From NCBI GenBank assembly GCA_902517275.1, contig CABYBQ010000003.1, positions 1 through 64,000 of the forward strand: 64,000 nt of DNA, given 5' to 3'. The notes beneath the pieces are model-generated. The model searched no databases. It worked only from the letters and a program-made list of their open reading frames with translations, and had not been told where the DNA came from. Numbering within the stretch: position 1 is the first letter of the stretch; the number at the start of each line of letters is the position of its first letter. Below, in pieces: positions 25,749 through 27,758 of the stretch. The DNA comes from an uncultured SAR116 cluster alpha proteobacterium (GTDB lineage: Bacteria; Pseudomonadota; Alphaproteobacteria; Puniceispirillales; Marisalimonadaceae). A program made the position numbers and the translations under genes.

Positions 25749-25782
25749 AAAAAAAAAGCCTGTAGTTTTACCTACAGGCTTT
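25749..25782 (-). terminator. Intrinsic terminator downstream of proteorhodopsin
   Basis: Minus strand: AAAGCCTGTAG-GTAAAA-CTACAGGCTTT followed by further Ts; perfect 11-bp stem, 6-nt loop. Confidence 0.88.
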
Positions 25783-25802: not shown

Positions 25803-26570
25803 TTATGCGTCTGATTCTGCAGTAGCAGCAGCCCATATAGCTAAACAGAAAGCGATTTTGTTAACTACATCCGCTAAGTTATAGACAATATTTAAGCTGT
25901 TATCGTCTACACCACCAGCCATATATCCCATGAAATAACCTATAGGATAGATAGCCCATCCAATAGTCACAATCCATTTCATGGTGTTGTAAGCTGTTTT
26001 AACAGAATCTGGAGCTTCAGCAGCATTAACTTTGCTTGCTTCACCAGCAAAGATTTCATAAAGAATGAATATCCAACCAGCCATACCAATTACAAAACCT
26101 AATGTTGCGTTAATGAAACCTGCTTCACCAAGATATCCACCGATTAACATCACTAATGATCCAACAAATAATCTCCAAAATACTCCACCGGCAATAGCAG
26201 TACAAGCAGCTAGAATTAGGTAAAATTCAATCATTTGTAATGGAACTGTAATAATCCAGTCTACATATCTAAATACAGTAGGTGATGCACCTGTGGATAC
26301 CCACACATCTCTCATGTAAAAATAGTGAACAGCCGCAACTAAGGTAACGAGAGAACCAACAACTAGAGATGTTCTCCACTTGCCTTTAACTCTCAATGAT
26401 TCCATTAAGAAAAAAACAGTTGCTGCAACCATGGCAATAGATATTATCCAAAAACTTATACCAACAAAATCGCTTGGATCCAGGTTTCCACTCGCGTGAG
26501 ATCCTGCATAAGCAAGTGTTGGAAGTCCAGCTAATAATGTAGCCGGTATTAAATATTTTAAAAAAGACAT
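25803..26570 (-). CDS. Proteorhodopsin (light-driven proton pump; predicted blue-absorbing)
   Basis: Signal peptide; helix C RYVDWIITVPLQMIEFYLILAA (D97/T101/E108 equivalents, Gln at position 105 equivalent); helix G VVNKIAFCLAIWAAA with retinal-binding Lys. Confidence 0.98.
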   Translation of the reverse strand: MSFLKYLIPATLLAGLPTLAYAGSHASGNLDPSDFVGISFWIISIAMVAATVFFLMESLRVKGKWRTSLVVGSLVTLVAAVHYFYMRDVWVSTGASPTVFRYVDWIITVPLQMIEFYLILAACTAIAGGVFWRLFVGSLVMLIGGYLGEAGFINATLGFVIGMAGWIFILYEIFAGEASKVNAAEAPDSVKTAYNTMKWIVTIGWAIYPIGYFMGYMAGGVDDNSLNIVYNLADVVNKIAFCLAIWAAATAESDA

Positions 26571-26604
26571 TTATAAACTCCCCTTATACTTGTCATGTTT
26601 AATT

Positions 26605-26648
26605 TCTAGCAACTGCTAGATTCTATGCAAATTTAGCATAATTAGCAA
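26605..26648 (-). promoter_or_regulatory. Candidate proteorhodopsin promoter with internal dyads
   Basis: Minus strand: TTGCTA (26648-26643) - 17 nt - TAGAAT (26625-26620). Spacer holds near-palindrome ATGCTAAATTTGCAT; downstream TCTAGC-AGTT-GCTAGA hairpin. SD-like GGGGAG before the ATG. Confidence 0.6.
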
Positions 26649-26981
26649 AACAATAAATTGGAAATTAAAGTTAGGCAACAAATAAAAGTTAATAAAATAT
26701 GTTTTTTTTCCACCTTATTTGCTAACATATTGATTTTAATAGATTTAATTCTTGATAACAATTATCACTATAATTTAAAAAAGGCTCTATTTTACGGAAA
26801 TCGTGCTGATAAGCAGCATATATTTCTTAATTTTAATTGGTTTACGTATTTAAATATCAAAAAAGTAACTAATTCGTTTATAACATTTTGAAATAAAGAA
26901 TGCTTAACTATTTAGCTCTAAGCATATTATTAATAATAATTTTAATATAAAAAATGTATAAAGTAGTCCTTTTATATATGA

Positions 26982-27758
26982 TTAAATAATTAATTCACCT
27001 TTTAAATTTGTTTCAAGTACGTCCCAATTAGGATTTTGAGGTTTTATAGCTTTAGATTTAAGTATCTTATGAATTTCAAGCCTATAAATCCTGTCGTTTA
27101 TCACATCATCTAGCCACTGTGAAAAATTTTTATCTTTAACATCTAAAAAATTTTTGAGATAAGTAAGTGCCTCACTTTCATAGATACCTTTTAAATTAGT
27201 GTTTTGTGCTTTTAACGCCGATAATCTTTTGGGTTTATCTTCATTAAAAGAAAAAGCACCTGGTATTGACACATATCCATATATTTCTTTTTGCCATTCA
27301 AATTCTTTTATTTTTACAGTTCCTAATTTCAATTTTACAAAATTATAAGCAACTCCCAAGGCCTCACTTAAGTGCATTATATTTAATTGACTTTCATTGA
27401 GCCATAATACGTTAAGATCAACTTTTGCTCCTTCACAAGGCCATTGTGTAGCAGGCATTGATCCATAAGCTGATACAGACGCTGCATATACTATGTCAGA
27501 GTCATATAATGTTGCTGGAGTAACGCATATATCTTGAATCATAGAAAACTTTCTTTTTAATTGATAAGGTGACCTATTTGATCCGACAGACAAGATGGGT
27601 GTTCTTTTATCTAAATCAAAACATATTCCTCTCACAAATTGACCCTTATAAAAAGAAAAAGAATAATTGGGGGCAAAATATGGATAACTTACAGCTCTAT
27701 TGTAAAAAGATAGATTAGGAAATAATTCATCATTTTCATTTAGGTTATTTTTTCCCAT
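26982..27758 (-). CDS. Conserved-looking protein of unknown function, possibly divergent gamma-glutamylcyclotransferase fold
   Basis: 258-aa ORF downstream of argC in the same orientation. ILSVGSNRSPYQLKRKF resembles the YGSNxxPxQLxRR motif of GGCT-like proteins; family assignment tentative. Confidence 0.65.
   Translation of the reverse strand: MGKNNLNENDELFPNLSFYNRAVSYPYFAPNYSFSFYKGQFVRGICFDLDKRTPILSVGSNRSPYQLKRKFSMIQDICVTPATLYDSDIVYAASVSAYGSMPATQWPCEGAKVDLNVLWLNESQLNIMHLSEALGVAYNFVKLKLGTVKIKEFEWQKEIYGYVSIPGAFSFNEDKPKRLSALKAQNTNLKGIYESEALTYLKNFLDVKDKNFSQWLDDVINDRIYRLEIHKILKSKAIKPQNPNWDVLETNLKGELII

Follow-up and report, generated by a model that had tools for sequence, protein, structure and literature searches.

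The region upstream of the proteorhodopsin (PR) gene in the analysed stretch of 64,000 nucleotides (the window) is, with somewhat better than even confidence, the 5′ leader of the PR mRNA, transcribed from a promoter designated P1; its two dyads would act in cis after transcription as RNA stem-loops, and a Fur box would add a further tuning of expression. Comparison with relatives shows the properties on which this reading is built, namely the conservation of the segment, its uniqueness to PR, the promoter spacing, the replacement of one structure by another in sister lineages and the position of the Fur box. The above-chance feature of the site is the conservation that runs from the second dyad to codon 9, and the dyads alone are ordinary. 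The features discussed below are the following.

25755..25782, strong intrinsic terminator between the proteorhodopsin gene and crtI
25803..26570, minus strand, PR gene of 255 aa (open reading frame; Pfam Bac_rhodopsin, E = 4.6e-44)
26544..26621, minus strand, near-invariant block from ATCTAGC to codon 9 (58-nt and 19-nt invariant runs with one variable site between them)
26572..26588, minus strand, SL3, AU-rich stem UAUAAG/UUUAUA with the Shine-Dalgarno sequence in the loop (predicted fold)
26578..26583, minus strand, Shine-Dalgarno sequence (SD) GGGGAG (from sequence)
26605..26620, minus strand, SL2, the earlier "TSS hairpin" UCUAGC-AGUU-GCUAGA, stem invariant in the genus
26625..26639, minus strand, SL1, the earlier "spacer dyad", a weak leader stem-loop AUGC/GCAU with the 4-bp stem kept in the genus
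26650..26655, minus strand, −10 hexamer of candidate promoter P1, TATTGT (relatives: TACTAT, TATTCT, TAATCT or TAATGT)
26673..26678, minus strand, −35 hexamer of candidate promoter P1, TTGCCT (TTGMYT with the exact 17-nt spacer, kept in four genera)
26733..26761, minus strand, P2, possible distal promoter TTGTTA-N17-TAAAAT (9/12 consensus; its −35 lies inside the Fur box)
26753..26767, minus strand, putative Fur box TGATAATTGTTATCA, a 7-1-7 palindrome near TGATAATNATTATCA with one mismatch

The PR locus and its candidate promoter

The PR gene of the window is most closely related, among named records, to those of the SAR116 cluster (85-98% identity). Within 25806-26570 the spectral tuning region reads PLQMIEF, and the Q at the tuning site presumably indicates a blue-absorbing PR. 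Beyond the 3′ end of the gene and the terminator lie genes matching the carotene desaturase-like, phytoene synthase, lycopene cyclase and beta-carotene dioxygenase families. On the 5′ side, a 411-nt intergenic gap harbours the dyads and the promoter candidates; upstream of it, on the same strand as PR, there is a 258-aa gene (26982-27758) with no Pfam match. The window belongs to a 1.21-Mb, 53%-complete genome assembly. Families (f1-f4) and genera (g1-g4) are referred to by anonymous labels, the window's own genus being g1.

The sequence-only reading had placed the PR promoter at TTGCTA (26648-26643) and TAGAAT (26625-26620), separated by 17 nt on the minus strand. Both hexamers are present and match 9 of 12 consensus positions, but they vary in relatives. 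Among 28 same-genus sequences the −35 is changed to CGCTAA or GGCTAA in most, and the −10 appears as TTGAAT, TTAAAT, TTATAT or CAGAAT, the A at its second position being lost in most members. Promoter-like sites in the surrounding 1.7-kb region numbered 7, against 9.2 expected. About 30 bp further upstream lies P1 (26678-26650), of the form TTGMYT-N17-TAnTnT, with a consensus match of only 8/12. All same-family sequences that extend this far keep a spacer of exactly 17 nt (g1 to g4; the TAATCT and TAATGT forms of L053 and L054 were read by eye), and one genome carries TACTAT in place of TATTGT, in register. As P1 is kept upstream with exact spacing, we place the predicted transcription start site (TSS) near 26643, which would put both dyads inside a 5′ leader of about 73 nt. 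The literature searched contained no TSS data for the SAR116 clade.

The first dyad, ATGCTAAATTTGCAT at 26639-26625 on the minus strand, had been read as an operator within the promoter spacer. The dyad exists, yet with 6 of 7 pairs, that is 13 and not 14 of 15 consistent positions, and dinucleotide shuffles of the 110-nt segment produced one as good with P = 0.34. In relatives its letters change and the spacing of the half-sites alternates between N6 and N7, the kind of outcome that the sequence-only reading had named as refuting it, and the operator reading is left unsupported. A search of the genome for further copies had been proposed as a check; with up to 2 mismatches it found 19 in 1.21 Mb vs. 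18.5 expected. We thus rejected the dyad as a regulon motif, since its count equals the Markov expectation and its 19:2 excess over the reversed control reflects base composition. Across relatives SL1 is no longer a DNA palindrome and persists as a weak 4-bp RNA stem. All 4 pairs are kept in each of the 10 distinct variants of the genus, with the outer pair A-U, G-U or G-C, a covariation that hints weakly at a role as RNA.

The second dyad, the perfect repeat TCTAGC-AGTT-GCTAGA (26620-26605), was confirmed in sequence. It had been assigned to the TSS; with P1 as the promoter it would instead fall inside the leader, some 24 nt in from where the mRNA is predicted to begin. Dyads of this type were equally good in shuffles of the same segment with P = 0.33. 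Its conservation, proposed earlier as a check, was borne out by the stem that is invariant in the genus. The pattern CTAGCNNNNGCTAGAAA occurs exactly once per genome, always in the PR leader, in 31 of 40 genomes of the genus. This dyad was likewise rejected as a regulon motif because it is present in a single copy per genome. Within the genus, covariation in SL2 is uninformative because the letters hardly vary. Across sister lineages the loop reads AGTT, TTTA, AATG, ATTT or AAAA, g1-II and g3 keeping the stem with other 4-nt loops.

Conservation and predicted structure of the leader

Among the 26 loci of the genus that were long enough, 98% of the 50 nt preceding the ATG are invariant, and a run of 58 nt from −31 to codon 9 is without any change. 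In the same genomes, 57 of 225 third codon positions of PR (25%) are invariant, as are 46-48% of the next 100 nt upstream of the leader. The control leaders of the same genus gave 54% for groES and 4% for amtB. No other stretch of the 3.7 kb is as conserved as the leader together with codons 1-9. When a covariance model was built from the leader, it recovered all PR leaders of this type; elsewhere in the family its best match was a single one with E = 0.08. Against Rfam the leader had no match above the gathering score, and what remained below the threshold was noise, most of it at the terminator. An overlapping upstream reading frame (ATG at 26596, with no SD) was considered and dismissed, as its frame is not kept: it is in frame with PR in L054 and stops early in L056. 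As a side observation, the groES leaders of the genus (L124-L153) carry a conserved palindrome, CAATAA..TTATTG, which lies downstream of a heat-shock-like −35, CTTGAAA.

In predicted folds of the genus the SD is 60-86% unpaired, and folding energies lie modestly below those of shuffles (z −0.2 to −2.6). SL3 comes from single-sequence folds, its invariant sequence allowing no covariation signal.

In sister lineages the stems are built from other letters. The g2 leader has a stem AATTAG-N6/7/8-CTAATT with a variable loop, the g4 leader has AATTCG-N7-CGAATT, and SL1 of g1-II is GTACTA..TAGTGC. Variable spacing and changed letters with pairing kept fit RNA stems better than an operator for a dimer. 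In L053 (g3) both SL1 and SL2 are lost and AAACATGACAAGTATAAGGGGAG is kept. In the g2 genome with locus L058 the leader is of the g2 type and the PR coding sequence of the g1-II type, likely a swap of the coding sequence; a foreign-type PR under the resident leader suggests that the leader follows the host and not the coding sequence.

More distant leaders are structured as well. Several genera of f4 (L048-L052, L059-L068) have two strong stem-loops, the second of which pairs the SD and the start codon (GUAGGACGUUCU...GGGGAGUGUCCUAUG); other f4 genera (L072, L073, L074, L076) have a distinct leader in which GUACCUUU is paired with the SD GGAGGUAC. In the predicted folds of f4 and f4b the SD is unpaired at 0.03-0.38, with z down to −4.1. 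For SL1 of f4, 93.5% of cells were paired vs. 38-55% when the arms were slid, and 8 of 11 pairs had changed on both sides; this covariation was obtained from re-aligned arms, and RNAalifold on the MAFFT alignment, in which SL1 is misaligned, gave none. The SAR11/HIMB59-like PR leaders (L191, L194, L209, L211, L216, L219, L227, L230, L231) also place a conserved pair of stem-loops ahead of the SD; in two of the base pairs both partners have changed.

Proposed mechanism, alternatives and known systems

In the mechanism that we infer, transcription would proceed from TTGCCT-N17-TATTGT, with SL1 and SL2 folding in the mRNA leader in vivo and SL3 presenting the ribosome-binding site. The stem-loops may shield the 5′ end of the mRNA from decay, and the AU-rich conserved downstream part may load ribosomes, which would result in stable, high opsin synthesis; Fur, by binding further upstream, would tune transcription by iron. 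Stabilizing stem-loops at the 5′ end of an mRNA are represented by the E. coli ompA leader. The PR leader would resemble this type as a short stem-loop leader on the mRNA of an abundant membrane protein, with an open ribosome-binding site next to it. It differs in the distance of SL2 from the predicted 5′ end and in that much of its conservation resides in unpaired letters. Of the dedicated regulation of PR that the sequence-only reading had envisaged, there are signs in the PR-only leader element and the Fur box, and the second dyad is conserved; the pair of operators is not supported, and the spacer dyad is not kept.

The main rival, which we consider possible though rather unlikely, describes the leader as a translational switch whose fold responds to temperature, an sRNA, an RNA-binding protein (e.g., a cold-shock protein) or a metabolite. 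The f4 leaders favour it: there a strong hairpin takes up both the SD and the start codon, as in SD-sequestering leaders (RNA thermometers, translational riboswitches). The extreme invariance of the unpaired leader letters also speaks for a switch, and translational control by cold-shock protein has been proposed in SAR11 (PMC2864753). Unlike in SD-sequestering leaders, however, the SD of the window's genus is predicted to be mostly open (0.60-0.86), and neither an alternative fold with good support nor a matching Rfam family was found. The preferred reading as a cis-acting leader has difficulties of its own, namely L053 with neither SL1 nor SL2, the modest z-scores of the folds and the 8/12 match of P1. 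Moreover, with SL2 and SL3 invariant in the genus, covariation is unable to prove their role as RNA, and invariant unpaired letters would also suit a binding site for a protein or an sRNA.

The same letters could also be conserved as DNA, with a regulator bound at TCTAGC-N4-GCTAGA just 3′ of the transcription start. The invariant letters and the 4-nt spacing fixed in the genus agree with this, but the site exists in a single copy per genome, only at PR, the 6-8 nt spacer of g2 would not be tolerable for a rigid dimer site, and conservation extends through the unpaired leader and codons 1-9; we regard this explanation as improbable. Much less credible still is the original model of a TTGCTA-N17-TAGAAT promoter whose spacer holds one operator and whose start site holds another: its 9/12 consensus and 17-nt spacer hold in the window genome, yet the hexamers vary, the −10 A is lost in most members, the spacer dyad shifts in letters and spacing, and its copies are as frequent as chance. 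We give equally little credence to a recent exchange of a short cassette among genomes as the origin of the invariance. Transfer of PR genes between lineages is known, and L058 suggests a swap under a resident leader, but both flanks have diverged in the same genomes, so that an exchange of about 77 nt would need to have recurred in 26-28 genomes.

PR is among the most widespread marine light-harvesting proteins, and control of its gene is known for very few organisms. In Vibrio campbellii PR is controlled by RpoS1, reported in 2012 as the first identified regulator (PMC3380642). That system resembles the present one in placing a PR gene under dedicated control; it differs from the SAR116 case in belonging to a gammaproteobacterium and in acting through a sigma factor, with no described leader RNA or Fur box (PMC3380642). 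Our search of the literature on PR and SAR116 regulation found no description of the present leader or Fur box. Two concrete candidate controls are offered here for an abundant clade that is largely uncultured: the frozen leader, specific to PR, and the Fur box at its fixed position.

The putative Fur box and possible control by iron

The Fur box is a separate, well-conserved candidate layer of iron control that was missed in the sequence-only reading. All 26 genus members whose upstream sequence reaches far enough carry it, with 0-2 mismatches, between −196 and −198 relative to the ATG; two of three g1-II genomes have it at −198 and −202. Named records carry it too, and it is absent upstream of PR in g2, g3 and g4. 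The exact palindrome is rare, occurring at 5 sites in the window genome (1.2 Mb) and at 0 in the control. Further sites are found beside genes for a ferritin-like protein, an Fe(III)-binder-like solute-binding protein, a VIT-family protein and an ABM monooxygenase, often a few kb from the fur gene. Fur itself (PF01475) was detected in 36 of 40 genomes of the genus and not in the 53%-complete window genome.

The PR site is like a Fur box (7-1-7 palindrome TGATAATNATTATCA) in that the same palindrome precedes PR and iron-related genes near fur. It differs in lying about 117 bp upstream of the predicted P1 start, over P2. The latter is a weak candidate for a distal promoter; the AT-rich TATAAAA/TAAAAT 3′ of the Fur box is kept in most genus members. 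Only tentatively do we propose that marine alphaproteobacteria (SAR116 families, SAR11/HIMB59-like) repeatedly evolved lineage-specific structured leaders for the control of PR translation, usually two stem-loops ahead of the SD, and that the window's genus added Fur, by which an iron-free light pump would be raised when respiratory iron is short. In diatoms, rhodopsin is known to be induced in an iron-driven manner (PMC10627834); if the Fur box works, its presence on a bacterial PR would be the direct bacterial counterpart.
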